A program made the position numbers and the translations under genes. The notes beneath the pieces are model-generated. The model searched no databases. It worked only from the letters and a program-made list of their open reading frames with translations, and was not told the origin of the DNA. A stretch of 64,000 nucleotides of DNA from Streptomyces sp. TSRI0107 (lineage in GTDB: Bacteria > Actinomycetota > Actinomycetes > Streptomycetales > Streptomycetaceae). Of this stretch, positions 693 to 57,477 are shown piece by piece (position 1 is the stretch's first letter; every line of letters begins with the position of its first letter). The stretch lies in NCBI RefSeq assembly GCF_001905845.1, contig NZ_LIVZ01000003.1:310001-374000 (forward strand), given 5' to 3'.

Positions 693-2969
693 ATGAGCGA
701 GGCCAATCCCTTGAAGCGGGTAGCCCACAAGGTCGCCGACAGCTTGCAGGGCGACGGCGGACCGGCCGACGGGATCCCCGGCAAGCCGGGTGCCGAGTCG
801 CCGTCGGTCGCCGAACCGACCGAGCCGAGGGAGCCGCTGCCGCCCAAACCCGACCAGAGCGGCCCGGAGACCGTGTCGCCGACCGGTCAGCCCACCGGCG
901 CCGACCAGGCCCGGATGGCCCAGTCCGGCGCTTATCTCACGACCGCCCAGGGCGCCCGGCTGTACGACACGGACCACTCGCTCAAGGCGGGACCGCGCGG
1001 ACCGGTCCTGCTGCAGGACCATCACCTGCGCGAGAAGGTGATGCACTTCGACCACGAGCGGATCCCGGAGCGCGTGGTGCACGCCCGGGGCGCTGCGGCG
1101 CACGGGGTGTTCCAGGGCTACGGCACGGCGGCCTCCGTGTCCAAGGCCGCGTTCCTCGCGAAGGACGTGGAGACGCCGGTGTTCGTGCGTTTCTCCACGG
1201 TGCTGGGGTCGCGCGGGTCGGCCGACACCGTGCGCGACACCCGGGGTTTCGCGACGAAGTTCTACACCAGCGAGGGCGTCTTCGACCTGGTCGGGAACAA
1301 CATCCCGGTCTTCTTCATCCAGGACGCGATCAAGTTCCCGGACGTCATCCACGCGGGGAAGCCGCATCCGGACCGGGAGATCCCGCAGGCGCAGAGCGCG
1401 CACGACACCTTCTGGGACTTCGTCAGCCTGCACACCGAGGCCACCCACCACACCCTGTGGAACATGTCCGACCGGGGCATCCCGCGCTCGTTCCGGATGA
1501 TGGAGGGCTTCGGCGTCCACACGTTCCGGCTGGTGGCCGCGGACGGCGGCACCACGCTGGTGAAGTTCCACTGGAAGCCGAAGCTCGGGGTGCACTCCCA
1601 GGTGTGGGAGGAGGCGCAGATCACCAGCGGGGTGGACCCGGACTTCCACCGGCGGGACCTGGCCGACGCCATCGAGGCGGGCGCCTATCCGCAGTGGGAG
1701 CTGGGCATCCAGACGTTCCCAGACACCCCGGAGCAGACCTTCGAGGGCATCGACCTGCTGGACCCGACGAACATCGTCCCCGAGGAGCTGGCGCCGGTGC
1801 AGCCGGTCGGGCTGCTCACCCTGAACCGCAATCCGTCGAACTTCTTCGCGGAGACCGAGCAGGTCGCGTTCCACGTCGGCCATCTGGTTCCCGGGATCGA
1901 CATCACCGACGACCCGCTGCTCGCGGGCCGGCTGTTCTCCTACCTGGACACGCAGATCACCCGGCTGGGCGGCCCCAACTTCCCGCAGCTGCCGATCAAC
2001 CGTACGCACGCGCCGGTCAACGACATGCAGCGCGACGGCATGCACCAGACGGCGGTCCACCGGGGCGCCGCCCCCTACCGGCCGAACTCGCTCGACGGCG
2101 GGTGTCCCTTCCTGGCCGGCGCGGACACCGGGGCGTACATCGAGACGCCGGTGCGGGTGCCGGAGTCGACGAAGGTGCGGGAGGCGCCGGAGTCGTTCGC
2201 GGACCACTTCAGCCAGCCCCGCCGGTTCTGGCTGAGCATGTCGCCGGTGGAACGGGAGCACATCATCGGCGCGTACGTCTTCGAGCTCGGCAAGTGCTAC
2301 GAGCAGGCCGTCAAGGAGCGGCAGCTGCAGGTGCTCGCCAACATCGACCCGGAGCTGTGCGAGCAGGTCGCCCAGGGGCTCGGCCTGCCGGCCCCGTCGC
2401 CGACCGTGCCGCTCGCCGATGTCGCGCCCAGCCCGGCGCTGTCGCAGGTGGGTGACACGTGGCCGGTCGACGGGCGGATCGTCGGCATCGTCGCCGGCGC
2501 GGACGGCGACCTGGAGGGGGTGCGCGCGGTGCGCGAGGCGGTGCTGGAGGCGGGCATGGTGCCGCTGGTCGTCGCGCCGGCCGGCGGCACCCTCGCGGCC
2601 GGTGACGGCGCGGTGACGGTGCAGCGCACGTATGTCACCGCGCGGTCGGTGGAGTTCGACGCCTTGCTGCTGGCCGGTGCTCCCGCGGTGGGCAGCGACG
2701 CGTACACCGCCCGTGACGCGAAGTCGACGCCCACCGCCGCGGAGCCGGCGACGTGCGACCCGCGGGTCCGGCTGCTGCTGGCGGAGGCGTTCCGGCACGG
2801 GAAGGCCATCGGCGCCTGGGCGGACGGCAAGGCCGCCCTCGACGCGGCGGGCGTGCCCACGGACGCGCCGGGCGTGGTCCTCGCCGACTCCCCCACCGCG
2901 GCGCTGGAGCAGGTCACCCGGCTGCTGGGCGCGCACCGGGTGTGGGAGCGGTTCTCGACCCCGGCCTGA
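693..2969 (+). CDS. katE: Catalase HPII, large-subunit type
   Basis: 758 aa, the length of large-subunit (clade II) catalases, which disproportionate hydrogen peroxide using haem in the cytoplasm. Visible motifs: the catalytic histidine region [31 protein letters not shown], the active-site asparagine region [14 protein letters not shown], and the haem-ligand tyrosine motif RLFSYLDTQ. The C-terminal ~170 residues after the catalase core form the flavodoxin/DJ-1-like domain typical of HPII. The N-terminal ~70 residues are Pro/Glu rich. AAGGAG lies 8 bp before the ATG. Transcribed alone and divergently from gvpO; a possible SigB-type -10 is present upstream. A 9-bp minisatellite follows the stop codon. 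Confidence 0.95.
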
Positions 2970-2981
2970 CGGGCACGCTCC

Positions 2982-3035
2982 GGCCGAAAGGGCCGAAAGG
3001 GCCGAAAGGGCCGAGCGGGCCGGGAGGGCCGGGAG
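2982..3035. repeat. 9-bp minisatellite, six tandem units
   Basis: Six contiguous 9-bp units begin 12 bp after the katE stop: three copies of GGCCGAAAG, one GGCCGAGCG and two GGCCGGGAG. All units share GGCCG. Expansion by slippage is the simple explanation; a role in katE 3' end structure is possible. Confidence 0.8.
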
Positions 3036-3096
3036 GTACGGCACGGATCGCGGGCTGAGAGGATGGCACGGTTGATCATCGAAGGGGGATCCCGCC

Positions 3097-3282
3097 ATGA
3101 CCGTGCTCATCCTGTCCGCCGTCCTGCTGCTCGCGATCGGGGGCTGCGTGTGTGTGGTGTGGGCGGAGCGCGGCGGCCCCCGCTGGGCGCGTGTGGTGGC
3201 CCGGCTGACGGTGGGAGCGGGTGAACTGCTGAGCAAGGCGGGGCGTTCGGGCGGCAGCCGGAACAACGGCTCGGACGACTGA
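3097..3282 (+). CDS. Small single-pass membrane protein
   Basis: 61-aa protein. Residues about 2-22 form one hydrophobic segment (VLILSAVLLLAIGGCVCVVW), followed by a basic, Gly/Ser-rich cytoplasmic-type tail. A strong ribosome site (GAAGGGGGA) lies 7 bp before the ATG, which is the main argument that this short frame is real. No recognisable family. It follows katE in the same direction after a minisatellite, so co-transcription with the catalase is possible but not shown. Confidence 0.55.
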   Translation: MTVLILSAVLLLAIGGCVCVVWAERGGPRWARVVARLTVGAGELLSKAGRSGGSRNNGSDD

Positions 3283-3351
3283 CCGCTCCGCCACACCCCC
3301 GGCGCGCGGCCGTCCTTCGGCGGGGACGACGCGGGCCGGGAGCGACTGGGG

Positions 3352-3891
3352 TCAGCCGGGCAACGCTCCCGCGCCGCCGTTCGCGCTCAGCGCCGGCTCG
3401 TCCCTGCGGCGGGGCGGCAGATGCCGGTCCAGGGGCCCGCCATGGGCGCGCGTCAGCTCGCGCAGGGCGCGGTCCAGCACATATTCCAGCAGTAAGGGCG
3501 GGGTGAGGGTGCCGCTGCCGTCCGGTGGGACGAGCCAGTGCAGCGCGCCCCAGCGGCAGTGCGGGGCGGGGGCGGCGATCCAGCCGCCCTCGGTCACGTA
3601 CCGGACGTCGTGGCCGGCCCAGAGGGCCGCGGGCTCGGGCGGCACCAGGAATCCGACCCGATGGCCCCGGGCGTCGAGCAGGACCGGGCCTGGGGCGACC
3701 CCGGGCAGGGCTTCGAGCAGGTCGGCGGCGTACAGTCCCAGGCGTTCCGGAACGGTCAGTACGTCCCACTGCCGCCCGGCGGCCAGCAGGTGGATCCCGG
3801 TGACGCCGTGCTGCCAGTCGTCCCGGCAGGCACGTGGGTCCTTCGCCGCGGCGGCCAGCCAGTCCAGCGCCCTCGTCCACTCCGACAGCAC
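3352..3891 (-). CDS. Hypothetical protein resembling Streptomyces primase/polymerase-like N-terminal proteins
   Basis: 179 aa from the GTG at 3891, which has GGGAGG at 9-bp spacing; the upstream TTG at 3900 directly abuts that site and is less likely. The pattern (ALDWLAAAAKDPRACRDDW at the N-terminus, then LLAAGRQWDVLTVPERLG, GPVLLD, VGFLVPP and a HWLVPPDG strand) recalls a Streptomyces family annotated as bifunctional DNA primase/polymerase-like. The catalytic acidic triad of true archaeo-eukaryotic primases is not obvious, so an enzymatic role should not be assumed. The C-terminal 30 residues are Arg/Pro/Gly rich and probably disordered. Confidence 0.6.
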   Translation of the reverse strand: MLSEWTRALDWLAAAAKDPRACRDDWQHGVTGIHLLAAGRQWDVLTVPERLGLYAADLLEALPGVAPGPVLLDARGHRVGFLVPPEPAALWAGHDVRYVTEGGWIAAPAPHCRWGALHWLVPPDGSGTLTPPLLLEYVLDRALRELTRAHGGPLDRHLPPRRRDEPALSANGGAGALPG

Positions 3892-4121
3892 GATCGCCAA
3901 CCTCCCGTAGCAGGATGAACACGTCGGGCGGCACTTCCGCGACGCCGGGACGTGCCGACGGCGGAGTGCGACTCGTGCCGTAGTCCAGCCGAACGCGCGG
4001 CTGGAAGGCCATATGCGTGAAGTCCTGTTCGCCGGATTCAGCGAGCGCGGGCGCGCGGAGCGGAACGGCGTCCGCTGTCACGCGCCCCCGCGTACCGCCT
4101 CACAACACCGGTGCGCGGTCG

Positions 4122-4595
4122 TCAGCCGACCTCCGTGCCGCCTCGTGCGGGCGAGCGGCGGGCGAAGCCCAGTACGGCGAGCAGGGTGGTCGGCTGCCGG
4201 GTGGACAGGTAGAGGTACGGCGCGGCGCAGTCCGGGTCGTCGATCTCGATGCGCAGGGCCGTCGGGACGTAGCCGCGCAGCAGCATCAGCGCGCGTACGT
4301 CGGCCCGCCGGGTGCGCCACAGGAACGCCTCCTCGGCGTCCAGGATCTCGGCCAGGCCGAGCGAGGTGAGGGGGAAGCGCAGCGAACCCGCGACGAGGTG
4401 TCCGCCCGTCACGACGATGCGGACGGCGCCGTAGACGCGCAGTGCCAGTGCCGCCAGAGCCGTCACCGTGACACATCCGCCGGCGGCGGCCACCGCTCCG
4501 AAGGGCAGCAGGGCGGCGGCGGCCATCACACCCAGCATCGCGGCGAACCAGTACCACGACCTCGGGACGCCGAGACGTTCTTCGTACAGACGCAT
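4122..4595 (-). CDS. DUF3093 family membrane protein
   Basis: 157 aa. The N-terminus (YEERLGVPRSWYW) is followed by two hydrophobic helices (about residues 16-32 and 37-54). The conserved soluble part carries PLTSLGLAEILDAEE, RALMLLRGYVPTALRIEIDDP and YLYLSTRQPTTLLAVL, the pattern of DUF3093, a widespread actinobacterial family of unknown function that sits near dut in many genomes. Here the neighbours are unrelated. ATG start; divergent from the TPR gene with a 156-bp spacer. Confidence 0.75.
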   Translation of the reverse strand: MRLYEERLGVPRSWYWFAAMLGVMAAAALLPFGAVAAAGGCVTVTALAALALRVYGAVRIVVTGGHLVAGSLRFPLTSLGLAEILDAEEAFLWRTRRADVRALMLLRGYVPTALRIEIDDPDCAAPYLYLSTRQPTTLLAVLGFARRSPARGGTEVG

Positions 4596-4751
4596 GCCCC
4601 CACCATGTCAGCTCCGCCGGGCGGGCTGTTCACCGCCCACCGCGTCAGGCGAGTGAGGACGCCACTACGCTGGGTGCCGGACCCCGGCGAGGGCGCACGG
4701 TCCGTGTGCGTGCGGGGCCGGGCGGCGTACGCACAGTTCGGGAGGCACCCC

Positions 4752-6455
4752 ATGGACTACTACGATCTCGGCACTCACTCCCGTCCGGTGACGACCGCGT
4801 CCGCCGAGGCCCGGCTCTGGTTCGACCGCGGCCTGGCCTGGACGTACGGCTTCCACCACGAGGAGGCCGTCCGCTGCTACGAGGCGGCCGCCGCGGCCGA
4901 CCCCGACTGCGCCATGGCGTACTGGGGCATCGCCTACGCGCTCGGCCCCAACTACAACAAGCCGTGGGAGTTCTTCGACGATCAGGAACTGCCCCGAACG
5001 GTCGAGCGCACCCATGCCGCCGTGGAGCGGGCGCACGAGAAGGCGGCCGGCGCCACGCCCGTCGAGCGTGCGCTGATCGGCGCGCTGCGCGCCCGCTATC
5101 CGCAGTCCCGGCCGGTCGAGGACTGCTCGGTGTGGAACACGCCGTACGCCGACGCCATGCGCGCCGTCTACGAGCTCGCCCCCGACGACCTGGACGTCGT
5201 CACCCTGTACGCCGACGCACTGATGAACCTGACGCCCTGGCAGCTGTGGGACCTGCGCACCGGCGAGCAGGCCGAGGGCGCGCGCACGCTGGAGGCCAAG
5301 GCCGTGCTCGACCGCGCGCTCGCCACGGAGGACGGCCGCGGCCATCCGGGCGTCCTGCACATGTACATCCATCTGATGGAGATGTCCCCGACGCCGGAGG
5401 CCGCCCTGCCGGTCGCCGACCGGCTGCGCGGTCTGGTCCCGGACGCCGGTCACCTCCAGCACATGCCCTCACACCTCGAAGTGCTGTGCGGCGACTACCG
5501 GCAGGTCGTCGCGGACAACAGCCTGGCGATCGCCGCCGACGAGAAGTTCCACGAGCGTGCCGGGGCGATGAACTTCTACACGCTGTACCGGTCGCACAAC
5601 TACCACTTCAAGATCTACGGGGCGATGTTCCTCGGCCAGTCCGAGACCGCCCTGCGGACGGCGGCCCAGCTGGAGGCGTCCATCCCGGAGGAGCTGCTGC
5701 GGGTGCCGAGCCCGCCCATGGCCGACTGGCTGGAAGGCTTCCTCGCCATGCGGGTGCACGTGCTGATCCGGTTCGGCCGCTGGGCCGACATCCTCGCACT
5801 GCCGCTGCCGGCGGACCGGGAGCTGTACTGCGTGACCACCGCGATGCTGCACTACGCGCGGGGCGTCGCCTTTTCCGCGACCGGCCGGATCAGCGAGGCC
5901 GAGGAGGAGCGGGAGCTGTTCCGCGCGGCGGTCGCGCGCGTCCCCGCGACGCGGATGCTGTTCAACAACACCTGCGCCGACATCCTCGCCATCGCCTCGG
6001 CCATGCTGGACGGCGAACTGGAGTACCGCAAGGGCGACTTCGACGCCGCCTTCGCCGCCCTGGAGCGGTCCATCGCCCTGGACGACGGCCTTCCCTACGA
6101 CGAGCCGTGGGGCTGGATGCAGCCCACCCGGCACGCCTACGGCGCCCTGCTGCTGGAGCAGGGGCGGGTCGCCGAGGCGGAGGCCGTCTACCGGGCCGAC
6201 CTCGGCCTGGACGACACTCTGCCGCGCCCCTGCCAGCACCCCGGGAACGTCTGGTCCCTGCACGGCTTCCACGAGTGCCTGCTCCGGCTGGGCAAGACGG
6301 CGGAGGCCCGGCTCGTCGCCCATCAGCTCAAGCTCGCGACCGCCCTGGCGGACGTCCCCGTCGAGTCGTCCTGCTTCTGCCGTATGGACACGGCGGCGCC
6401 GGCGGGTGCGGGGACGGGTGCGGCGGCACCGCACTGCTGCGGCGCGGACGACTGA
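4752..6455 (+). CDS. Tetratricopeptide repeat protein with Cys-rich tail
   Basis: 567 aa. The start at 4752 is chosen because GGGAGG lies 6-7 bp upstream and the preceding in-frame sequence is low-complexity. Helical TPR-type repeats begin at residue ~15 (LWFDRGLAWTYGFHHEEAVR, AAADPDCAMAYWGIAYALG) and recur to the C-terminus (YRKGDFDAAFAALERSIALDDG, LLEQGRVAEAEAVYRADLGLDD). HMYIHLMEMSP and QHMPSHLEVLCGDY are histidine-rich helices typical of this uncharacterised bacterial TPR family. The last ~30 residues carry SSCFCRMD and PHCCGADD, an unusual cysteine/histidine cluster that could bind metal. Function unknown; a scaffold is the default guess. Confidence 0.8.
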   Translation: MDYYDLGTHSRPVTTASAEARLWFDRGLAWTYGFHHEEAVRCYEAAAAADPDCAMAYWGIAYALGPNYNKPWEFFDDQELPRTVERTHAAVERAHEKAAGATPVERALIGALRARYPQSRPVEDCSVWNTPYADAMRAVYELAPDDLDVVTLYADALMNLTPWQLWDLRTGEQAEGARTLEAKAVLDRALATEDGRGHPGVLHMYIHLMEMSPTPEAALPVADRLRGLVPDAGHLQHMPSHLEVLCGDYRQVVADNSLAIAADEKFHERAGAMNFYTLYRSHNYHFKIYGAMFLGQSETALRTAAQLEASIPEELLRVPSPPMADWLEGFLAMRVHVLIRFGRWADILALPLPADRELYCVTTAMLHYARGVAFSATGRISEAEEERELFRAAVARVPATRMLFNNTCADILAIASAMLDGELEYRKGDFDAAFAALERSIALDDGLPYDEPWGWMQPTRHAYGALLLEQGRVAEAEAVYRADLGLDDTLPRPCQHPGNVWSLHGFHECLLRLGKTAEARLVAHQLKLATALADVPVESSCFCRMDTAAPAGAGTGAAAPHCCGADD

Positions 6456-6471
6456 CCGCCCGGGGAGACGT

Positions 6472-6906
6472 CTACGCGACCCAGCAGTAGACAGCCTGGT
6501 CCCGGTGCCGGGCGCTGCCGACGAGGGCGGCCAGACCGGTCAGGATCGCCTCGGCGATCTCGGTGCGGACGACCTCGCCGTCGGCGGCGCGCCGCTCGGC
6601 CCACGCCACCGCCGCCTCCCGCAGCCGGGAGCGCTCGGCCGCGGCGAGTGCGGCGGACAGGCGTGACGAGACCGCGAAGACGACGCTCCCGCCGTCGTCC
6701 TGCTCGGCGACGAACCGGGGCTCACCGGCGTCGGCGAGTTCGTCGAAGCTGCCGCCCGCCAGCAGGCACTCCCACTCGACCACGGCCTCCTCCACGTCGA
6801 AGTTGCCGAAGGACAGCGACTCGAACGCCTGTCCCGGCCCGTGCCGAAGCGCCTCTGCCGCCGACGTGTCGTCCGGCGCGACGAAGAACTCGACGATGCT
6901 GCTCAT
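6472..6906 (-). CDS. Conserved hypothetical protein (likely BVMO operon partner)
   Basis: 144 aa, acidic, no signal peptide or membrane segment. The N-terminal half (MSSIVEFFVAPDDTSAAEAL, SFGNFDVEEAVVEWECLLAGGSF) reads as an alpha/beta fold and the C-terminal half is helical and Ala-rich. I recognise it only as a conserved Streptomyces hypothetical. It starts 18 bp after the stop of the upstream monooxygenase on the same strand, so the two are probably co-transcribed. It ends 16 bp from the converging TPR gene. Confidence 0.6.
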   Translation of the reverse strand: MSSIVEFFVAPDDTSAAEALRHGPGQAFESLSFGNFDVEEAVVEWECLLAGGSFDELADAGEPRFVAEQDDGGSVVFAVSSRLSAALAAAERSRLREAAVAWAERRAADGEVVRTEIAEAILTGLAALVGSARHRDQAVYCWVA

Positions 6907-6924
6907 GGTGTCGGGCGGGTCCTC

Positions 6925-8853
6925 TCAGCTGATGTCCAGGTCCGCGAAGTCCGCGTGGCGCAGGAAGCGCCACACCTCCCCGGCGGAGAAGGGGCACTGG
7001 GTCGCCGTGCGGTCGCGTTCGGTCCAGTAGTAGTTGCGTGCCCGGGGGTCGCTCCAGGTCTTCGTGAGGTTACGGCGGTCGACCTCCTCGTTGAACCGCC
7101 GGTACGGCTCCTCCTTCACGGTGATCGCCTTCTTGCCGTCGAGGATCAGCCGCTCGATGCATTCGAGGGCGTGGACGGTGATGAGTTCGTGGTACGTGGG
7201 GATGTTGAGCATGCTGCTGGTGTTCGGGCCGTAGATGGTCCACAGGTTCGGGAAGCCCGGCATCATGCAGCCCTTGTAGGCGCGTGCTCCGCCCTCGCTC
7301 CACAGCTCGTCCAGTGTGCGCCCGTCGCGGCCGGTGATCTTCATCGGGAAGAGGTAGTCCCGGGCGCGGAAGCCGGTCGCGTAGACGATGGCGTCCACGT
7401 CGTGCCGGGTGCCGTCGGCCGTCTCGATCCCGGTGCGGCCGATCCGGCGGATGCCGTCGGTGACGAGTGTGACGTCGTCCCGCTGGATGGCGTCGAGGAC
7501 GCTGTACTCGGGGTCCACCAGGACGGGCCGGGCCGCGAGCACCGGGTGGGGCGGTGTCATCCTCGCCACGAGCGCGGGGTCGCCGAGTTTGTGTTCGAGG
7601 AAGGCGACGGCGGTGTCCCGCGCCGCCTTGTTCACGGCGCTGAGGGCGTGCGGGTCGTCGTAGTCGGGGTCGATCTCGGTGGCCGTCGCCAGCACGTTGG
7701 TCGCGTATGTGGCCCTGAACCGCGTGAAGTTGGTGTGGTACGGCATGTTCCGGTCGAGCCAGGTGACCTGGTCGGGGAAGGGCGAGCGGTAGCCGGGCAC
7801 GGGGAACAGCCACTGCGGTGTGCGCTGGAAGACGGTGACGTGCCCGGCGTGCCGGGCCAGCTCCGGGACGAGCTGGTAGCCCGTGCAGCCCGTCCCGATG
7901 ACCGCCACCCGTTTGCCGGCCAGGTCGGCCCCGGCCGGCCAGCGGGCGGTGTGCCAGGACGGGCCGGTGAACTCCTCGGCCCCCTCGATCCGCGGAATGT
8001 TCGGCCGGTTGAGGAAGCCGACGGCGGAGATGACGGCGTTCGAGCGGAGCGTGCGCTCCCCTCGCGGGCCCGCCACGTGGATCGTCCACGTCCCGGAGTC
8101 CTCGTCCCACTCCATCGCGCGCACCTCGGTGTCGAACACGATGTCGTCGCGGACGGCGAACTCGTCGGCGACCCATTCGAAGTACTCGGCGTTCTGCTCC
8201 GCCGGGCAGAACGGGTACGGGTAGCCGAAGTCGACGCCGTACAGGTGGGTGTAGGCGCGGCTCGGGGAGTCGACGCGGCAGCCCGGGTAGCGGTTCTCCC
8301 ACCAGGTGCCTCCGACACCGGAGTTCTTCTCGACGACCGTGCAGGCGATGCCCGCCCGTTTCAGCTGGACGGCCGCGTTGAGGCCGCCCATGCCCGCGCC
8401 GATGACCGTGACGTGGAAGTCCGCCAGCCGTTCGGGGGGCGGCGGGGCCTGCCAGTGCAGGGCGCGGGCCCACGGGTCGAGGGCCAGGTCCTCCAGCCAC
8501 AGCCCCATGTCCTCCTCGGGGATCTCCTCGCCCGCCGCCAGGGCCAGGCTGACCGGCAGGCGCTCGGCGGGACCGGGCTCGATGTGACCGGCTCCGGCGT
8601 CACGGTAGGCCTTGAGGAAGCGCGCCGCCTTGTGCCACAGGAGCGCGGTGTCCTCCGCGCCGACCGGGACTTTCATCTCGAGCACGCCCGCCGGCACGGT
8701 CGTCACCTTCGTCGCCGCGAGTTCGTCGTCGCCGGTCAACTGGTACAGCAGGCCCCGCAGCACCATCGGGTCGGCGTACCGGACGGCGTCCTCGATGGTC
8801 TCGTCGGTCGCGTCGAGCAATTCCTTGCGGGTCCCGCCTTCAAGCGTCGCCAT
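6925..8853 (-). CDS. FAD-dependent Baeyer-Villiger-type monooxygenase
   Basis: 642 aa, longer than the ~540-aa type I enzymes because of an N-terminal helical extension of ~130 residues. Rossmann motif VIGAGMGGLNAA binds FAD, and FTGPSWHTARWP matches the Baeyer-Villiger fingerprint FxGxxxHxxxWP. A second dinucleotide motif (VIGTGCTGYQL) fits NADPH. GCMMPGFPNLWTIYGPN is the usual C-terminal block. Such enzymes insert oxygen next to a ketone to give esters or lactones; the substrate here is unknown. The ATG at 8853 has GGAAGGA at 6-7 bp; in-frame upstream sequence is Arg-rich and not protein-like. Followed by a hypothetical gene in the same operon. Confidence 0.9.
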   Translation of the reverse strand: MATLEGGTRKELLDATDETIEDAVRYADPMVLRGLLYQLTGDDELAATKVTTVPAGVLEMKVPVGAEDTALLWHKAARFLKAYRDAGAGHIEPGPAERLPVSLALAAGEEIPEEDMGLWLEDLALDPWARALHWQAPPPPERLADFHVTVIGAGMGGLNAAVQLKRAGIACTVVEKNSGVGGTWWENRYPGCRVDSPSRAYTHLYGVDFGYPYPFCPAEQNAEYFEWVADEFAVRDDIVFDTEVRAMEWDEDSGTWTIHVAGPRGERTLRSNAVISAVGFLNRPNIPRIEGAEEFTGPSWHTARWPAGADLAGKRVAVIGTGCTGYQLVPELARHAGHVTVFQRTPQWLFPVPGYRSPFPDQVTWLDRNMPYHTNFTRFRATYATNVLATATEIDPDYDDPHALSAVNKAARDTAVAFLEHKLGDPALVARMTPPHPVLAARPVLVDPEYSVLDAIQRDDVTLVTDGIRRIGRTGIETADGTRHDVDAIVYATGFRARDYLFPMKITGRDGRTLDELWSEGGARAYKGCMMPGFPNLWTIYGPNTSSMLNIPTYHELITVHALECIERLILDGKKAITVKEEPYRRFNEEVDRRNLTKTWSDPRARNYYWTERDRTATQCPFSAGEVWRFLRHADFADLDIS

Positions 8854-8967
8854 GCGTCGTTCCTTCCGGCACGGGGTCATCGGAGGCCGCGGGCGGTGGT
8901 CCTCCGGGGACCACCGCCCGCCGCGCCGAGCCTGGCACCGCGCCCTAAAGCCGCCGCGCACGGCGGC

Positions 8968-10077
8968 TCAGCCGCCGAACAGCACCCGTCTGCCGGTGGT
9001 GAAGCGGCGCAGGGTCTCCGGCAGCGGCCGTACGCCGATGCCGGGTGAGGCCGGCACGGTGAGGTGGCCGTCGCGCAGGACGAACGGTTCGGTGACGTCC
9101 TCGGCGAAGTACCGGCTGGAGGCCGAGGTGTCGCCGGGCAGGGTGAAGCCGGGCAGGGCCGCGAGCGCCAGGTTGGGGGCACGTCCGATGCCGGTCTCCA
9201 GCATGCCTCCGCACCAGGCGGGGACGCCGTGTGCCGCCGCGACGTCGTGGACGCGCCGGGCCTCCAGGTAGCCGCCGACCCGGGCGGGTTTGACGTTCAC
9301 GACCCGGCAGGCGTCCATGGCGATGGCGGAGGCGGTGTCCCGGGCGGAGTGCAGGGACTCGTCGAGGCAGACGGGTGTGGCGATCCGCTGTTGCAGCAGG
9401 GCGTGCGCGTGGAGGTTGTTCTCCTCCAGCGGCTCCTCGATGAGCAGCAGCCCGAACTCGTCCAGCCTGCGCAGGTGTTCGGCGTCGGCGAGGGTGTAGG
9501 CCGTGTTGGCGTCGACCTGGAGGGGGAGCCCGTCGCCGAAGCGTTCGCGCACGGCCCGTACCGGTTCGACGTCCCAGCCCGGCTCTATCTTCAGCTTGAT
9601 GCGCAGATAGCCCTCGGCGAGGTAGCCCTCGACCTCGTCGAGGAGTGCGGGCACCGAGTCGCGGATGCCGACCGAGACCCCGGCGGGCACCCGGTCGCGG
9701 ACGGCGCCGAGGAAGGTGGCCAGCGGCATGTCGTGGGCCCGCAGTTCGGCGTCGAGCACGGCGGTTTCGAGGGCGGCCTTGGCCAGCTCGTGGCCCTTGA
9801 TCCTCGCGAGCGCGGGGGCGAGCGCGGCGGTGGTGAGCCGGGGCAGCGCGGCGGCTCGGGGCAGCAGGAAGTCGCGCAGGACGATCTCGGCTCCGGCGAC
9901 GAACTCCGGGCAGTACAGCGGTTCCGGGTCGGCCGCGAACTCGGACCAGCCCTCGGCCTCGTCGGTGACGACGTGCAGCAGGAAGGTGTCCTTGCTGGTC
10001 ATGACGCCGAACGAGGTGCGGAACGGGGTGACGAGGGGGATGGCCACATGGAGGAGTTCCACGCGTTCGAGCTTCAT
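8968..10077 (-). CDS. N-succinyl/N-acylamino acid racemase, o-succinylbenzoate synthase family
   Basis: 369 aa, enolase superfamily (MLE subgroup). Catalytic features read directly: KxK motif in RIKLKIEP, metal ligands in QVDANTAYT, LLIEEPL and CLDESLHS, and the second-side lysine in VNVKPARVGGY. These enzymes either make o-succinylbenzoate for menaquinone or racemise N-acylamino acids. No other men genes lie nearby; instead it overlaps the upstream COG3375-type acetyltransferase by 4 bp (ATGA), the arrangement of the racemase route for D-amino acids. Therefore N-succinylamino acid racemase is the favoured function. MenC activity remains possible since the family is promiscuous. Confidence 0.88.
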   Translation of the reverse strand: MKLERVELLHVAIPLVTPFRTSFGVMTSKDTFLLHVVTDEAEGWSEFAADPEPLYCPEFVAGAEIVLRDFLLPRAAALPRLTTAALAPALARIKGHELAKAALETAVLDAELRAHDMPLATFLGAVRDRVPAGVSVGIRDSVPALLDEVEGYLAEGYLRIKLKIEPGWDVEPVRAVRERFGDGLPLQVDANTAYTLADAEHLRRLDEFGLLLIEEPLEENNLHAHALLQQRIATPVCLDESLHSARDTASAIAMDACRVVNVKPARVGGYLEARRVHDVAAAHGVPAWCGGMLETGIGRAPNLALAALPGFTLPGDTSASSRYFAEDVTEPFVLRDGHLTVPASPGIGVRPLPETLRRFTTGRRVLFGG

Positions 10078-50917: not shown

Positions 50918-52274
50918 ATGACGAACGGACCCAGGGAAACGAACGGCCCCAGGGACAGACGTGCCTTCGGTGACCAACCCGGCCGGCCCCACGGCGCCGG
51001 CACACGCGAGCGTACGGAGTACACCGGGCGATACGTGGTCCAGGTCGTACAGAGCGACCAGGAGAGCGCGTTGAACGCCCTGCGCTCCCAGGCCGGCATA
51101 GGGCCCGTCGAGCGCGTCCGGGCAACCGAGCCCGAAGGCGTCTCCGAACTCCTGGAGCGCCCCGGCGCGTCCGTGTACTACGAGGAACTCGGCGTCGTGG
51201 TCGTGGAGGTCCGGCCCGAACAACGCCACGCACTGATGGTCGCGGCCGAACAGGAGTCCTCGATCATCGCGGCGGAACCGGAGCGCATGGTCTATGCCGC
51301 CGCTCCGATCATCGCACCGAACACGGCGCCGACCGAGTTCTTCCCGGCCTACCGCAGCGACGAGGATGTGGTCGAACGGCATACCCAAGCCCAAATGGGC
51401 CCCGGTCTCGGGCCCGGCGTGGGATGAACAGGCCCTGACCTGGGGGCTGCAGGCGATCCGGGCGAGCCTGTCGGGTCTGACCGGCCGCGGTGTCAAGATC
51501 GCCGTCCTCGACACCGGTGTCGACACCGAGCACCCGGACCTCGCCGGTCGTATCGAGGCGACGGCCTGCTTCGTGGCGGGCGAAACCGTGGCGGACGGCA
51601 ACGGTCACGGCACGCACTGCGCCGGGACGGCGGCCGGCCCGGCACAGCCCTCTCGGGGTCCACGCTACGGCGTGGCCTGCGACGCCGGGATTCTCGCGGC
51701 GAAGGTGCTCAGCGACGCGGGCACCGGCACCGACGGCCAGATCCTGGCGGGCATCGCCTGGGCCGTCGCGCACGGCGCCCAGGTGATCTCCATGTCGCTC
51801 GGCGCACCCGTCTGGCCGGGTGCACTCTTCCCGCAGACGTACGAGCAAGCCGCCCGGTGCGCGCTCCGCCACCAAGCGGTGACGGTCGCCGCCGCCGGCG
51901 ACGACAGCAATCGGCCCACATACGTCCAGCCCGTCAGCCGGCCCGCCAACTGCCCTTCCGTCCTCGGAGTCGCCGCACTCGACAAGACGCTCACGGCGAC
52001 GTACTTCTCCAACGGCGGCATCAACATCCCGGGCGGCGAGGTCGACATCGCCGCGCCCGGCAGGGACGTGCGCTCGGCCGCGCCGGACGGGTGGTACCGG
52101 ACACTGAGCGGCACCAGCACCGCCACCGCGCACGTCGCGGGTGTCATCGCGCTGCTCGCCCAGGCGCACCCCGACGCTTCCGCGGCCGACCTCAAGTCCC
52201 TGTTGCCGGCCGGCGCCTTCCCGCTGGCTCAGCCCGCCAGGGACGTGGGAGCGGGCCTGGTCCAGGCGCCGTGA
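50918..52274 (+). pseudogene. Subtilisin-like S8 protease, pro-domain and catalytic domain in different frames
   Basis: First frame 50918-51427 encodes a low-complexity N-terminus and an I9-like inhibitor/pro-domain (YTGRYVVQVVQSDQESALNAL, SVYYEELGVVVVEVRPEQ), then stops at TGA 51425. The next frame (+1), entered around 51401-51416, reads AWDEQALTWGLQAIRASLSG and a complete S8 domain to 52274: Asp in KIAVLDTGVDTEHPDL, His in GNGHGTHCAG, Ser in LSGTSTATAHVAG. Joining the frames by skipping one base at GGG CCC G gives a normal pro-protease. It is either a frameshift mutation, a sequencing error or a +1 programmed shift. No secretion signal is seen. First gene of the MBL/CHAT/DUF2235 locus. Confidence 0.75.
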
Positions 52275-52393: not shown

Positions 52394-53491
52394 ATGTCCG
52401 GGCACGTCTTCGTGGTCAATTGCCTGCCCGTCGGTCACGGCGACTGCATTCTCGTCGAGTACGGCGATCAGAGGAACCCGGCCCGTGTCCTCATCGACGG
52501 CGGGCCCGCCCGGTCCTATCAGGCCCTGCGTGACGCCATCGGCGAACTTCCGCCGGACAGACGCCGTTTCGACTTGCTGGTGGTCACCCATATCGACACG
52601 GATCACATCGACGGTGTGCTCATTCTTCTCCAAGACGAGGAGCTGGGTGCCGAGTTCGACGATGTGTGGTTCAACGGCTGGCCGCAGCTGAAGTCGCTCT
52701 CCGCCGGCCGAGCGCGGGACGTCTTCGCTCCGCCGCAGGGCGAGTTCCTCGGTCATCTCCTGCACGCACGGGGCCAGGCGTGGAACCGCTCGTTCGCAGC
52801 GGACCGCGGATGCGTGATGGTCGCGGATCGGGGGCCGCTGCCCGCACGGGAGCTGCCCGGGGGCGCGACGATCACGCTGCTGTCCCCGCGCGAGGAGAAC
52901 CTGCTGAAGCTGCGGCGGACATGGGTCGAGGCGCTCCGGGATGCCGGGATGCGGCCTGGCGACTGGGACCAGGCCAAGGCTCGGCTCGACGCACGCGCCG
53001 AGTACCGGCCGCGGGCTCCTCGGGACGATGTGTACGCCACCAGGAAGTTCGGTTCCGACACATCCGCGGCGAACGGGGCGAGCATCGCGTTCGTCCTCGA
53101 CTACCGGGGCCGCAGAGTGCTGTTCGGCGCGGACGCGCACGTGTCCGTGCTCACCGAGGGGCTGAGGCGTCTCGCCGACGGCCTGGGGGTCCTGCGTGTG
53201 CCCCTGGACGCCGTGAAGCTCTCTCATCACGGCAGCATGGCCAACATCGACGGCACGTTCCTCGACACGATCGACGTCTCACGTTTCCTGCTGTCGACCA
53301 ACGGGGCGTATTTCCGGCACCCGGATCCGGAGACCATCCTGCTCCTCGCGGAGCGTGCGCCGGGAGCCGAAGTCCGGTTCAACTACCGCTGCCGCACGAC
53401 CGAGGTGTGGGAGCGGCCCGGCGCGGCACCGGGCGGGGGAATCCGCGCGGTGTACCCGCCCGAAGGCCAGGTGCTGGACCTGGGATCGTGA
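52394..53491 (+). CDS. MBL-fold (ComEC/Rec2-type) metallo-hydrolase
   Basis: 365 aa. Metallo-beta-lactamase ligands: THIDTDHIDG (H66, D68, D70, H71), late Asp in VLFGADAH (D247) and KLSHHGS (H278/H279). The first strand VFVVNCLPVGHGDCILVEYG with LIDGGP matches ComEC/Rec2-like stand-alone hydrolases. Cytoplasmic, no signal or TM. A short hairpin (ACCCC-AAA-GGGGT, 52348-52360) and a TAGACT -10-like box lie in the 119-bp spacer. Followed after 22 bp by the CHAT gene. In conflict systems such hydrolases accompany CHAT and trypsin/subtilase proteins; substrate could be a nucleotide or nucleic acid, unproven. Confidence 0.88.
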   Translation: MSGHVFVVNCLPVGHGDCILVEYGDQRNPARVLIDGGPARSYQALRDAIGELPPDRRRFDLLVVTHIDTDHIDGVLILLQDEELGAEFDDVWFNGWPQLKSLSAGRARDVFAPPQGEFLGHLLHARGQAWNRSFAADRGCVMVADRGPLPARELPGGATITLLSPREENLLKLRRTWVEALRDAGMRPGDWDQAKARLDARAEYRPRAPRDDVYATRKFGSDTSAANGASIAFVLDYRGRRVLFGADAHVSVLTEGLRRLADGLGVLRVPLDAVKLSHHGSMANIDGTFLDTIDVSRFLLSTNGAYFRHPDPETILLLAERAPGAEVRFNYRCRTTEVWERPGAAPGGGIRAVYPPEGQVLDLGS

Positions 53492-53513: not shown

Positions 53514-56375
53514 ATGGCGCCGTCGGATTTCGAGAAGCTCGACATGGAGGTGCTGGCCGGCCGGCGCGACCAGCTGTGGGTCTCGGCACGTTCCCGGATG
53601 GGCGCGGTGTACGCCGTACCCCACGCCGGCTGGCGCAGGGAGCAGCTGACGGCAGCCGGCGCGCTGCTGCAGGACGCCGTGTGGCATGGTGATGAGGCCA
53701 CCGCAGAAGCAGAACACACCGGGAAACAGCTTCAGGACCTCCTCTTCGGGGACACTGATGTGCTCGCCCTCTTCCAGCGCACCCGTGGCGCCGCGGCCGA
53801 CGCGGGTCGGCCACTCGTCGTCCGCATACTGAGCGCACCCCATGACATCGCCGCGTTCCCCTGGGAACTGACGCTCGACCCCGAAGGCGGCCGGACGTCC
53901 GGCGGCGGGACGTACCTGACCCTGGCGCCGGACGTGCACATCATCAGGCTCGCCCGCACCCGGACGTATCCGGTGCGCGCCCGCCCGATCGAACCACCCC
54001 TGCGCATCCTGGTCGTGCTGTCCAGCCCTGAGGGCGACCAGATCCCGTTCGACCTGTACGAGGAAAAGAGGATCCTCCTGAACGAGCTCACCCCGCTCGT
54101 GCACAGCGGCAAGATCGTCGTGGATGTGGAGGACCGGCCCAGCCTCGACAACCTCCACCGGTGCATCAGCGGCCGGACGCGCGGCTACCACGTCGTGCAC
54201 TATCTGGGGCACGCCAGCCAGTCGGGCCTGGTACTGGAGACCGGCAGGGGCTCGCCACGCGACGTCACGGCGGAGCAGTTCACCAGCTTGCTGCAGGGCT
54301 GCCCGGACCTGCGACTCGTGGTCTACGCCGGCTGCCTCACCGCAGGCCCCCCGCAGCCCGCGAGCCCGCGTCGGCGGTCGGAGGAGAACTGGCGCGCGTC
54401 ACCCAGCATCGCGGACCTGAGTGCCAGGACGGCGGCGCCGGTCGTGGTCGGTATGCAGGCTGTGCTGCCGTTCCCGACACAGCGCATCTTCGCCCGCATT
54501 TTCTACCGATCGCTGGCAGGTGGACGGGACCTCGCCGGCGCCGTCCAGCTCGCCCGCGGCGCCGTTCGCGGCGACGAGTTCGTCGGAGGCTTCCTCGACT
54601 GGGCCGTCCCGGCGCTCTTCGTCGGCGGTGACGAACCAGGGCCTCTCCTCGGCGTGTCCGTGCCCTCGACAGCCACGCCACGCCCCGTACGCCGGGAGCT
54701 GAAGCTCGGGCTGGAGGAAGAGGAGCGCTCGCTGCTCAGCCGGCCTGTGTCCCTTCGGCAGGCGATGAGCATCGTCAGCGGCCGGAGCTCCTCCCGCGCT
54801 CTCCTGGTCACCGGCACGCCGGACCTGCGCACCCCCTTCGTGGCCCGGATCCTGGAGGATCTAGGCGACGACGTCTCGCTGGTTCTGTATGTCCACGCCC
54901 AGGAGTTCAAGGACGAACCGGATCCGGTGGGCCGGCTCTGCACCTGGATCACCGAGTTGCTCACGGGGCTCGACCGTCGGGCACGGCAGCCGCACAAGAG
55001 CTGGCGCAGCCACGACTGGTGGAAACGCATACTCGAAGAACTCGTCGCCGTGCCCGCGGTCCTCGCGTTCGACGGCCTTGAGGATCTCTCCGACACGGCC
55101 GCGAAGGAGCTCGGCGGTGTGTTCCGGGAACTGGCGCTGCGCCGCGGACGGGCACGCCTGGTCCTGGCCGGCATGGTCGACATGAATCGCTTCCTGGGTG
55201 ACCGCGCCACGCGATACGCCCAGCAGATCCTCTTGCGTCCCTTGGAATGGACACAGGTCGAACGGTGGATCCGCTGGAACGTCCCCGAACTCCTGCGTCA
55301 TCAGGACAGGCTCGAACGGTGGTACACGGAAGGCTTCCAGGAGGACTTCACGCTGTGGACGCGGCTCGCGGAAAGGACCGCCAACCGCCCCGCGGCAGAC
55401 CCCCAGAGCATTGTCAACGAACTGCTCGCCACCCGCTCCCCCGCCCCCCTGGACCGTGCCGCCCCACCTCTGCTGGCCGCCCTCGCCCACCCGGACACGG
55501 CGGGCTGTGCCGAGGAGTTCGCCGGCTGGATGACCGCCCTGGCCAACAGGAAACGGGTGGGGGGAAAGGTCGTGGTCTCCGGTGGCACGGGCGAGCCGTC
55601 CTCCATCGCCGCGCTGTCACCGGTCGATTCGCCCTTCGCAGGGCAGCGCACGGCCACTGACACCGACGCCGTGCGCTGGACGCAGGAGGCACTGACGGAC
55701 GGCGCGAACGTGCTGCTGCTGGATTTCGGCAGACCGGGACCTTCGGCCATCTGGGACGGCATCTGCCGTCGGCTGAGGCAACAGGGCGTGCTGGTGATCG
55801 GCGTCGGCGGGGACCGGGGTGACGAGGAGATCCGCTATCCCCCGTGGTGTCCCGACGTCCTCACGGTCGGCTCGCTGACCGGCGGAAGACCTCCACGTTC
55901 GGCGATGTGGAAGCCGTCCGCGGGGAAGCCGGAGATCTTCGCCGCCGAGAGCCTCGCCTGGGCCGACCCCCCTCCCGCTTTCGCGCAACTGCGTCACGGC
56001 AGCCATCAGGCGGCCCTGGGCGTGCTGGCCGCCGCGCTCCTGGTCTGGTCGGTGGACAGGACACTCACCGGCGAGGGCGTGCGTGACATTCTGCTGAGGA
56101 CGGCTCCGCCCGGAAAGGCGCAACGCGACGGCGAGGCCGCGCACTTCCGAGCGCTGAACTTGGATGCCGCGCTGGAGCACGCCCGCGTCCGTCTGCTGGC
56201 GAAGGTCCTCGCGCACGGCCGGGCCGGCAGACGGGAACTGGTAGCGGCCACCGGTCTGTCCCCCGGACTGGTGAGTGATCTGCTCGCTCAGCAGCAAGCC
56301 GCTCACCGCGTACGCCGGGTCGTGACGGAGGAGGGAGAGAAGTACGAACTGATCGAGACGCCCCCCGACAGATAG
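53514..56375 (+). CDS. CHAT protease - degenerate NTPase - degenerate subtilase - winged helix fusion
   Basis: 953 aa. CHAT caspase-like domain ~1-380: catalytic His233 in HVVHYLGHAS and Cys274 in LVVYAGCLTAG. Region ~425-640 looks like a STAND/AAA NTPase: Walker B-like VPAVLAFDGLEDL (Asp520) is kept, but the P-loop position (LLVTGTPDLRTPFVA) has no GK[ST]. Region ~685-890 is subtilase-like (ANVLLLDFGRPGPS, GVLVIGVGGDRGDEEIRYPPWCPDVLTVGSLT), with HGSHQAALGVLAAA at the catalytic-Ser site, apparently lacking Ser at the nucleophile position. C-terminal winged helix ~891-953. AGGAGAG precedes the ATG. Likely a regulated protease that detects a signal through its non-catalytic modules. Confidence 0.85.
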   Translation: MAPSDFEKLDMEVLAGRRDQLWVSARSRMGAVYAVPHAGWRREQLTAAGALLQDAVWHGDEATAEAEHTGKQLQDLLFGDTDVLALFQRTRGAAADAGRPLVVRILSAPHDIAAFPWELTLDPEGGRTSGGGTYLTLAPDVHIIRLARTRTYPVRARPIEPPLRILVVLSSPEGDQIPFDLYEEKRILLNELTPLVHSGKIVVDVEDRPSLDNLHRCISGRTRGYHVVHYLGHASQSGLVLETGRGSPRDVTAEQFTSLLQGCPDLRLVVYAGCLTAGPPQPASPRRRSEENWRASPSIADLSARTAAPVVVGMQAVLPFPTQRIFARIFYRSLAGGRDLAGAVQLARGAVRGDEFVGGFLDWAVPALFVGGDEPGPLLGVSVPSTATPRPVRRELKLGLEEEERSLLSRPVSLRQAMSIVSGRSSSRALLVTGTPDLRTPFVARILEDLGDDVSLVLYVHAQEFKDEPDPVGRLCTWITELLTGLDRRARQPHKSWRSHDWWKRILEELVAVPAVLAFDGLEDLSDTAAKELGGVFRELALRRGRARLVLAGMVDMNRFLGDRATRYAQQILLRPLEWTQVERWIRWNVPELLRHQDRLERWYTEGFQEDFTLWTRLAERTANRPAADPQSIVNELLATRSPAPLDRAAPPLLAALAHPDTAGCAEEFAGWMTALANRKRVGGKVVVSGGTGEPSSIAALSPVDSPFAGQRTATDTDAVRWTQEALTDGANVLLLDFGRPGPSAIWDGICRRLRQQGVLVIGVGGDRGDEEIRYPPWCPDVLTVGSLTGGRPPRSAMWKPSAGKPEIFAAESLAWADPPPAFAQLRHGSHQAALGVLAAALLVWSVDRTLTGEGVRDILLRTAPPGKAQRDGEAAHFRALNLDAALEHARVRLLAKVLAHGRAGRRELVAATGLSPGLVSDLLAQQQAAHRVRRVVTEEGEKYELIETPPDR

Positions 56376-56412
56376 GCCCTCGTGCCAGGAAGACATGCCC
56401 TCGGAGACTGTG

Positions 56413-57477
56413 ATGGGCAAGAACATCGTGATGTGCCTGGACGGCACCGGCAACCAGCTCAAGGCCCGCGGCAACACCAATGTCGTCAGGCTCTACCAGA
56501 TGCTCGATCTACACGACCCCGCCGTGCAGATCGCCTACTACGACCCGGGCGTCGGCACGTTCTCCGCCACCGGCGCCTGGACGCTCCCCGCCCGCAAATT
56601 CTCCCGTCTCCTCGGGCTCGCCTTCGGCTCCGGACTCAGGACGAACCTCGCCGAGGCCTACACGTATCTGATGCACCATTACGAATCCGGCGACCGGATC
56701 TACCTCTTCGGCTTCAGTCGGGGCGCATACACCGCCCGGGCTCTCGCGGGTCTCCTCAAGGCGGTCGGTCTGCTCCGACCGGGCTCGGAGAACCTCGTCC
56801 CCTACGCCATCTCGGTATACGCCAAGAGCCGGAACTGGACCGAGGACGACTGGGATCAACTGCACCGGTTCGCCGACGCGTTCAGCAGGAAGGTGGACGA
56901 ACGGACCGGAGTCCCCGTGCATTTCATGGGGCTGTGGGACTCGGTGAAGGCCGCCGGGCTGCTGCGCTGGAATCTGCGGTGGCTCCATACCAGGCGCGTC
57001 CCCAACGTCGGCCGTCTCCGGCACGCCGTCGCCATCGACGAGAAGCGCCGACCGTACGAGGAGTATCTGGTTCTGCCCCCGAAGAAACCGGGGGCACCGG
57101 GCCCGCTGATCGAGCAGGTCTGGTTCGCCGGGGTCCACTCCGACGTGGGCGGCACCTTCGACGACGACCCCAAGCTGCCCACCATCGCTCTCAAATGGAT
57201 CGTGGACGGCGCGCTCGACTCCCGGCTCCTGCTCAAGAAGGGGGCTTACGCGAAGCACTTCACCTTGGACTCCGGCCACGCGCTCGGCACGATCCACCGC
57301 ATGGGAGCCGTGTGGGCTCTGCTCACCTACCGGCGCCGCCGTGTCCCCGAAGACGCCGGGGTACACGCGAGTGTACGGCTGCGCATCGAGTCCGACGCCG
57401 GGTACGGACGACGCGTCCCGAGGAATGTGACGTGGGCTGACAAGGACTGGCTGACCCCCGATCCCCGAGCCGCCTGA
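56413..57477 (+). CDS. DUF2235 (Tle1-like) alpha/beta hydrolase
   Basis: 354 aa from ATG 56413 (GGAG at 6 bp; ATG 56395 also possible). MGKNIVMCLDGTGNQ is the DUF2235 opening; nucleophile elbow LFGFSRGAYTARALAG (Ser102), Asp176 in FMGLWDSVK and His242 in WFAGVHSDVGG complete a lipase-like triad. Family members include type VI secretion phospholipase effectors of the Tle1 group. No TM or secretion signal is visible. Starts 37 bp after the CHAT gene, so probably the terminal gene of the locus and a candidate membrane-damaging effector. Confidence 0.9.
   Translation: MGKNIVMCLDGTGNQLKARGNTNVVRLYQMLDLHDPAVQIAYYDPGVGTFSATGAWTLPARKFSRLLGLAFGSGLRTNLAEAYTYLMHHYESGDRIYLFGFSRGAYTARALAGLLKAVGLLRPGSENLVPYAISVYAKSRNWTEDDWDQLHRFADAFSRKVDERTGVPVHFMGLWDSVKAAGLLRWNLRWLHTRRVPNVGRLRHAVAIDEKRRPYEEYLVLPPKKPGAPGPLIEQVWFAGVHSDVGGTFDDDPKLPTIALKWIVDGALDSRLLLKKGAYAKHFTLDSGHALGTIHRMGAVWALLTYRRRRVPEDAGVHASVRLRIESDAGYGRRVPRNVTWADKDWLTPDPRAA

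Follow-up and report, generated by a model that had tools for sequence, protein, structure and literature searches.

Several described systems place a nuclease of the metallo-beta-lactamase (MBL) fold under the control of a protease. In the parts of Tuck et al. 2025 (PMC12799240) on which we draw throughout, such MBLs are DNases that two insertions keep inactive; a partner trypsin opens them in Hachiman and AVAST, and in Canu this is done by a caspase together with a partner protein. The same parts report that the HamA domains fused to proteases are virtually all without their catalytic motif. Inactive STAND and inactive peptidase domains are also a known feature of conflict systems of multicellular bacteria, for which decoy or dominant-negative roles have been proposed (Kaur et al. 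2020, PMC7159879, likewise used in part). Here we analyse a stretch of 64,000 nucleotides from Streptomyces sp. TSRI0107 (contig NZ_LIVZ01000003.1, positions 310,001 to 374,000, hereafter the window), part of a genome of 8.74 Mb. It carries an MBL-fold gene of the Avs1a/LmuA pro-nuclease kind (52394-53491), the gene of a 953-residue protein that we call CHATx (53514-56375, a single open reading frame without stops) and a Tle1-like phospholipase gene (56395-57477). All features of the MBL, CHATx, phospholipase and S8 genes given below for the window lie on the forward strand; 22 bp separate MBL from CHATx and 19 bp CHATx from the phospholipase gene.

We propose, at a probability of roughly 0.58, that MBL, CHATx and the Tle1-like phospholipase work together as a single self-destruction module gated by a protease, the CHAT-type equivalent of Canu, AVAST type 1 and nuclease-protease Hachiman. 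What the sequences show is the domain order of CHATx, its lost and kept active sites, their conservation in an ortholog, the tight pairing of MBL and CHATx and a phospholipase that is swapped between loci. Since CHATx fits as an activator matching those of the described systems (PMC12799240, in the parts used), we take it to be a protease that also senses, the MBL to be the pro-nuclease on which it acts, and the phospholipase to add a second effector. CHATx would then be both sensor and switch, with its dead STAND-like and subtilase domains serving as scaffold, sensor or docking surfaces and its winged helix as a further element binding DNA or a partner. When an invader, presumably a phage, is sensed, the CHAT domain would be released or assembled and would cut the gating loops of the MBL; the opened nuclease would destroy DNA, and the phospholipase, Tle1-like in the window and patatin in the ortholog locus, would under the same control attack the membrane. 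The role of such a module would be defence.

The first domain of CHATx is a CHAT peptidase (residues 69-375; 53718-54638). Residues 69-355 match Pfam PF12770 with an E-value of 1.7e-13 and 51.1 bits, above the cut-off of 24, which places the domain in the CHAT family. Caspases and CHAT peptidases belong to one superfamily. His233 (54210-54212) and Cys274 (54333-54335) sit in the catalytic columns of the alignment, as in all 17 CHAT sequences compared, the ortholog among them; the dyad that a first-pass annotation, made from the window alone, had taken as intact thus appears to be so. The best Foldseek match of the full CHATx model is SAVED-CHAT (PDB 8tl0, E 7e-8), for an AlphaFold2 model that is weak (mean pLDDT, the predicted local distance difference test, 42.6). 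Pfam reported no SAVED family for CHATx at E up to 1, absence from such lists excluding nothing, and no trypsin family either.

The middle domain (residues 412-600; 54747-55313) can be assigned at moderate strength as STAND-like, strongly diverged, lacking the Walker A lysine and predicted inactive; we use the Walker and STAND motif names in what we take to be their usual sense. For comparison with a two-sequence profile of CHATx residues 395-645, STAND profiles were built from domains encoded in its own genome (14 NB-ARC, 15 AAA_16). With the NB-ARC profile the score was 25.7 across 98 columns, against 22.4 for the best of 40 column shuffles; it was 30.7 across 173 columns with the AAA_16 profile (best shuffle 19.1) and 31.9 across 167 columns with the joint profile (16.9). 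For each of the three, the observed score was reached by none of the 40 shuffles, yet the hhalign probabilities were no higher than 5.6%, 18.9% and 29.5%, respectively. As negative controls, the pseudo-subtilase, MBL and CHAT domains scored 12.6, 13.4 and 19.3 with the joint profile, and the pseudo-subtilase up to 20.8 with the AAA_16 profile. As positive controls, all 14 single NB-ARC domains scored 85-377 with the AAA_16 profile, some of their genes being also within that profile, so that these controls are not all independent. Searches of the two sequences with the joint profile (hmmsearch) gave 4.1e-6 for the window protein and 2.9e-9 for its ortholog, and the NB-ARC profile alone gave 0.0043 for the window protein.

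The alignment runs in register through Walker A, Walker B, the sensor strand and the LRPLEW stretch that comes next. In place of GxxGxGK[ST], CHATx has GTPDLRTP (54813-54836) and the ortholog GAPGLRTP, while a Walker B-like VLAFDGLEDL is retained in CHATx. The suggestion that CHATx holds a dead P-loop domain without GK[ST] is thereby strengthened, the same loss being seen again in the ortholog, and can be specified as STAND-like at the strength given. Other methods return faint signals for this domain: no Pfam match at E up to 10, a best AAA match of only E 0.63 in a sequence search of the PDB, and an AlphaFold2 model that is itself weak (mean pLDDT 55.2). With that model, the top Foldseek rows are ORC/Cdc6 at E 0.014, none being below 0.001, and VIA-align gives Z 6.6 for Cdc6/Orc1, 6.5 for NB-ARC and 6.4 for an archaeal AAA+ ATPase, with barstar up to 7.1 and all Z below 8.

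Next comes a pseudo-subtilase domain (residues 651-880; 55464-56153). Searched as a two-sequence profile against PDB sequences (hmmsearch), residues 640-895 match the cyanobactin protease PatA (3.1e-9), PCSK9 and many subtilisins. We set the active-site register by alignment with the three S8 proteins that passed the alignment filter (that of the window and those of loci L071 and L074), ungapped at the end, and applied to CHATx positions what we take to be the residue roles of subtilisin. The GTSMA of the S8 proteins aligns with GSHQA in CHATx (GSH at 55998-56006) and GSYQA in the ortholog, so that His831 or a Tyr falls on the nucleophile position; Asp767 occupies the oxyanion Asn position, and the segments expected to hold the catalytic Asp and His contain neither. 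The domain is thus homologous to S8 peptidases and lacks their Asp/His/Ser triad. One HMMER alignment instead sets Ser830 on the nucleophile, with a gap; we prefer the ungapped version, and under either register the domain is predicted to be dead because Asp and His are absent. The full-length model is too poor for judging this region by fold. The best-modelled part of CHATx is the C-terminal winged helix-turn-helix (residues 881-948; 56154-56357), with pLDDT values of 69-83 by tens of residues. Its model matches ArsR-type winged helices such as CzrA, Z-alpha winged helices and others over about 60 residues, with a root-mean-square deviation of 1.3-1.8, Foldseek E of 0.01-0.02 and probability 1.00. 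A dead subtilase domain and a terminal winged helix had both been suspected before; both recur in the ortholog, and the second agrees with these models.

The sole full-length ortholog found is in Streptomyces sp. NBC_01214 (NZ_JAPEOS010000001.1, locus L055), with 63.7% identity over 946 aligned residues, and it too is without the same catalytic positions in both dead domains. The MBL-CHATx order is common to the window and L055, the two MBLs being 65.5% identical, and the conserved partner of CHATx appears to be this MBL gene directly upstream, of the Avs1a/LmuA nuclease kind. The genes of L055 run GMC oxidoreductase - animal haem peroxidase - patatin - MBL - CHATx, with gaps of 29, 6, 6 and 8 bp, the start of the peroxidase being a gene-caller prediction. 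Among the matches listed for the other 293 genus, 296 family, 292 order (C-terminal query) and 393 class genomes, none was full-length; these samples overlap, and the peptide-word scans need exact words and are not exhaustive. Of two genome-contig scans for further orthologs, one gave none and the other, limited to two peptide patterns, gave NBC_01214. A plasmid scan returned 9 records, every one with the CHAT part only.

Identity to the ortholog falls from the CHAT domain (70.0%) through the STAND-like (67.7%) and subtilase (61.7%) domains to the winged helix (51.5%), with 42.0% in the segment 601-650. Nonsynonymous and synonymous divergence (dN/dS, Nei-Gojobori) are 0.209/1.27 for CHAT (ratio about 0.16), 0.243/1.36 for the STAND-like domain (about 0.18), 0.327/0.94 for the pseudo-subtilase (about 0.35), 0.415/0.70 for the winged helix (about 0.59), 0.543/0.89 for the segment 601-650 and 0.264/1.28 for the MBL, dS values near or above 1 being rough. 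In every domain dN is smaller than dS, and the dead domains are therefore maintained by selection. Retained dead domains have a precedent here, since the protease-fused HamA domains are virtually all dead as well (PMC12799240, in the parts used). It is scarcely credible, and was already disfavoured, that these domains have no function and are relics in decay. Such an explanation could appeal to the winged helix and the subtilase, the least conserved of the four domains, and to the lower segment between residues 601 and 650; it has to contend, besides the dN and dS values, with reading frames intact in both species and with a STAND-like domain nearly as conserved as CHAT.

The same comparison bears on what the dead domains might do. 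In a more specific version of our proposal, which we consider unlikely, they would be guards or decoys: subtilase and STAND-like domains would imitate enzymes that invaders attack, namely proteases and ATPases, and an invader inhibitor bound to them would release CHAT. Counting itself, the window S8 has 14 matches in the genome, which also encodes STAND proteins whose P-loops are intact, and the dead subtilase evolves faster than CHAT, as its dN shows; this faster change, however, may just reflect looser constraint, and neither a binding partner nor a factor from an invader is known. The present data cannot separate bait from scaffold or sensor roles.

The MBL of the window matches the PADLOC profiles LmuA (3.4e-62) and Avs1a (1.1e-37) and the NCBIfam profile Avs1a at 2.9e-54, but with 184.3 bits against a cut-off of 420. 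Its metal motif THIDTDH and the GAD and HHG motifs are kept. An alignment of 15 MBLs delimits two variable insertions, residues 93-157 (52670-52864) and 174-226 (52913-53071), both candidate gating loops, the first by analogy with HamM and CanC (PMC12799240, in the parts used). A phospholipase gene adjoins the MBL-CHATx pair in both loci and belongs to different families, Tle1-like in the window (GFSRG motif; Pfam PF09994, 4.7e-76) and patatin in L055. The Tle1-like gene is the only PF09994 match in its genome, and none of the 10 relatives searched has one. We take DUF2235 to be the older name of the Tle1-like family; genes so annotated in two of the loci described below, L227 and L239, match PF09994.

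To place the pair among its relatives we surveyed 32 other MBL loci, hand-picked and not random, in which many plasmid gene names are annotations, so that the fractions are indicative only. An MBL match was present in 18 of 199 Streptomyces genomes (its own included), from which 15 loci were taken and the weak matches G145 and G191 omitted, and in 82 of 376 genomes of the phylum, where matches were mostly short and weak and 2 loci were taken. From 66 matching plasmid records 15 loci, mostly rhizobial, were taken by hand; records annotated avs1a and most gammaproteobacterial and Firmicute ones were omitted, and L240 was chosen with its S8 name visible. The cluster includes a caspase (C14 or annotated) or CHAT gene in 17 of the 32 loci: C14 caspases in L107-L112, CHAT in L113-L115, caspases in L225, L226, L227, L229, L232, L236 and L237, and CHAT in L230, counted at 23.8 bits, just below the cut-off of 24. 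The figure rises to 20 of 32 with three divergent CHAT-type proteins (L228, L233 and L238; 846-861 residues, no Pfam match), which are related to the L230 CHAT protein over about 500 residues at E 1e-20 to 1e-22. An S8 peptidase adjoins the MBL without caspase or CHAT in 5 of 32 loci (L117, L231, L239, L240, L241) and a patatin without protease in 2 (L118, L119). Patatin or Tle1-like genes are found in 5 of 32 clusters (L118, L119, L225, L227, L239), and in both CHATx loci. In the Bradyrhizobium plasmid locus L227 the order is Tle1-like - caspase - hypothetical - MBL (1241-6083), and in the Miltoncostaea plasmid locus L239 it is S8 - MBL - Tle1-like (2799-6937).

Several of these loci deserve mention in their own right. 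L107-L112 are six Streptomyces triplets of C14 caspase, a related protein of about 427-455 residues and MBL, a Canu-like order, and are possibly Streptomyces members of Canu. The family of 846-935 residues encoded immediately upstream of the MBL genes in L228 (2419-5004), L233 (1958-4498), L238 (1793-4333) and L230 (2650-5457), of which only the L230 protein reaches the CHAT profile, seems to be a further class of divergent CHAT-type partners. L105 (4013-6932) and L116 (4306-7000), both MBL loci in which no protease was recognised, share a divergent neighbour whose domains are DUF2278 and Lamin Tail; it may be a partner of yet another kind. The MBL of L234 (992-3969), carried by an Agrobacterium pAt plasmid, is immediately preceded by a Tn3-type transposase gene that is split over two frames. 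An apparent MBL-CHAT fusion of 1003 residues in L114 (5630-8641) was rejected: the C-terminus of the MBL continues in another frame, a frameshift, and provides no evidence of fusion.

The gene upstream of the MBL encodes an S8 peptidase (50918-52274), and the first-pass annotation had supposed that the dead subtilase of CHATx resembles this protease in fold and might dock with it or be cut by it. That account had noticed neither that the S8 gene is split over two frames, nor the MBL gene in between, nor the Tle1-like phospholipase downstream. A role for the S8 is suggested by its position on the same strand, 119 bp before the MBL, by the S8 genes that adjoin related MBL genes in the five surveyed loci given above, and by the shared fold family. 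The N-terminal part (50918-51427) and the catalytic part (51294-52274) are nevertheless in different frames, with the break at about 51,410-51,427. In all 8 close homologs, by contrast, a single open frame covers both (identity 51-66% to the N-terminal part and 67-70% to the catalytic part), and a conserved programmed frameshift is rejected on that ground. The called S8 proteins of the eight homolog loci (13.0-13.5 kb each) have 424-448 residues; directly after their genes comes a conserved small gene encoding 75-83 residues, and no MBL or CHATx homolog is among the called genes; this small gene was not found beside the window S8 (tblastn of the L154 copy against the window gave weak matches elsewhere, the best at 10146 with E 0.032). 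The 16 kb of L055 contain no match to either S8 part.

As to the resemblance, the dead domain shares the subtilase fold family with the window S8 and is no closer to it, at rank 27 of the 40 matches listed, than to other subtilases. Descent of the dead domain from MBL-linked S8s was also considered and set aside, the best of seven such S8s standing at rank 21 of the 40 listed and one being unlisted; many unlinked S8s in that ranking had been chosen as best CHATx matches, which biases it against MBL-linked descent. We consequently give very little credence to docking with, or cleavage by, the S8 two genes upstream. With reservation, we regard the S8 as a broken neighbour outside the system; an assembly error could explain the frameshift, and since S8-MBL pairs exist elsewhere some link is still conceivable.

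Returning to the described systems (comparisons again within the parts of the two papers used), the nearest is Canu (KaeCanABC, PMC12799240), in which a caspase-superfamily protease adjoins an MBL pro-nuclease of the same kind in a compact operon. CanA, however, consists of a caspase domain with an Ig-like fold, whereas CHATx combines CHAT with a dead STAND-like domain, a dead subtilase and a winged helix; the MBL is downstream there and upstream of CHATx here, and a phospholipase is added here. The window thus has an MBL of the pro-nuclease family in its operon, as Canu does, but a CHAT protein instead of a C14 caspase CanA, and no gene between MBL and CHATx that could be CanB. AVAST type 1 likewise places an MBL of this kind upstream of a fusion of protease and STAND-type domain; its protease is trypsin-like, in contrast with the CHAT cysteine peptidase here, and the STAND-like domain of CHATx is without the Walker A lysine. 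No trypsin family was reported by Pfam for CHATx, as said above, and the MBL stays below the NCBIfam cut-off for Avs1a. Since defining features of both systems are lacking, we set the CHATx system apart from Canu and AVAST type 1.

Nuclease-protease Hachiman (PflHamMAB, PMC12799240) also has a protease-activated MBL and a fused domain, HamA, that has lost its catalytic motif; it employs a trypsin-type protease and the helicase HamB, and the parts used describe no subtilase-like domain. The iSTAND/VMAP ternary conflict systems (PMC7159879) resemble CHATx in having inactive STAND and inactive peptidase domains alongside caspase-like peptidases, but that paper describes them as almost entirely absent in actinobacteria, and no MoxR or vWA gene was seen adjoining CHATx among the neighbours scanned with Pfam. 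In its text neither CHAT nor MBL occurs as a term. SAVED-CHAT shares with CHATx a CHAT peptidase placed under an attached sensor domain, which is SAVED there. We found no description of a CHAT-STAND-subtilase protein in open-licence PMC papers, and the main text of the paper on Canu (PMC12799240) contains none of the words 'patatin', 'phospholipase' and 'DUF2235'. By analogy, the CHATx system is probably a variant within the protease-activated MBL nuclease systems, in which the DNase would be activated by proteolysis.

A number of observations weigh against this proposal. CHATx is known in two species only, so that the MBL-CHATx pairing depends on a single comparison, and a viral scan gave no relative of it. 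The flanks of the CHAT active site are divergent (YAGCLT against the usual LNxCE/S), making activity an assumption. The gating loops of the MBL are placed by alignment alone, and no cleavage site is recognisable in them. In the survey, 7 of the 32 MBL loci lack both caspase and CHAT and carry an S8 or patatin instead, and 5 (L105, L106, L116, L234, L235) are without recognised caspase, CHAT, S8 or phospholipase. PADLOC assigns neither CHATx nor the Tle1-like protein to a family, and the surroundings have no recognisable defence-island character, as judged by eye from the gene list and by Pfam scans. The wider flanks carry BrkB-like, mycothiol-dependent isomerase-like and amino-acid permease genes on one side and a carbonic anhydrase gene on the other (Pfam). 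ARAGORN found no tRNA in the window. Apart from these points, a search with 13.1 kb of DNA in 31 genomes, its own included, gave no clean empty site, the flanking genes being dispersed.

A locus so unlike a defence island might suggest that CHATx instead regulates programmed death or division in Streptomyces, in a developmental or housekeeping capacity, as other CHAT proteins do; the CHAT part also resembles HetF weakly (24.5 bits in NCBIfam, where the cut-off is 1200), which points in the same direction. A full-length match in only 1 of 294 other congeners, with none seen in the family, order and class samples, does not fit a developmental core gene, however, and the relatives of the MBL belong to defence systems. 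We find this explanation improbable, slightly more so than the decoy version above.

Going beyond the module as proposed, a three-armed death machine can be imagined, in which CHAT, held by a sensor made entirely of dead enzymes, would unleash both DNase and phospholipase, and the peroxidase and GMC oxidoreductase of NBC_01214 could oxidise the freed fatty acids into lipid signals or toxins. A caspase-like protease, a phospholipase A and a cyclooxygenase-like enzyme would then be united in one NBC_01214 operon. The trio of nuclease, protease and phospholipase might moreover represent a wider class, as is suggested by the caspase- and S8-linked MBL loci that carry patatin or Tle1-like genes. 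We regard this extension as speculative and rather doubtful. At L055, the genes of the GMC oxidoreductase, animal haem peroxidase and patatin (3880-9989) lie in one run with MBL and CHATx and might extend the system to the oxidation of lipids.

Taken at the strength given to our proposal, the cluster points to an alarm for bacterial suicide whose sensor is unusual. If this is true, CHAT peptidases would be a further class of protease able to open MBL pro-nucleases, and two different dead enzymes kept by selection could make up the part that controls a switch of this type. The patatin and Tle1-like genes recurring beside MBL-caspase and MBL-CHAT genes would point to a combined attack on DNA and membrane.

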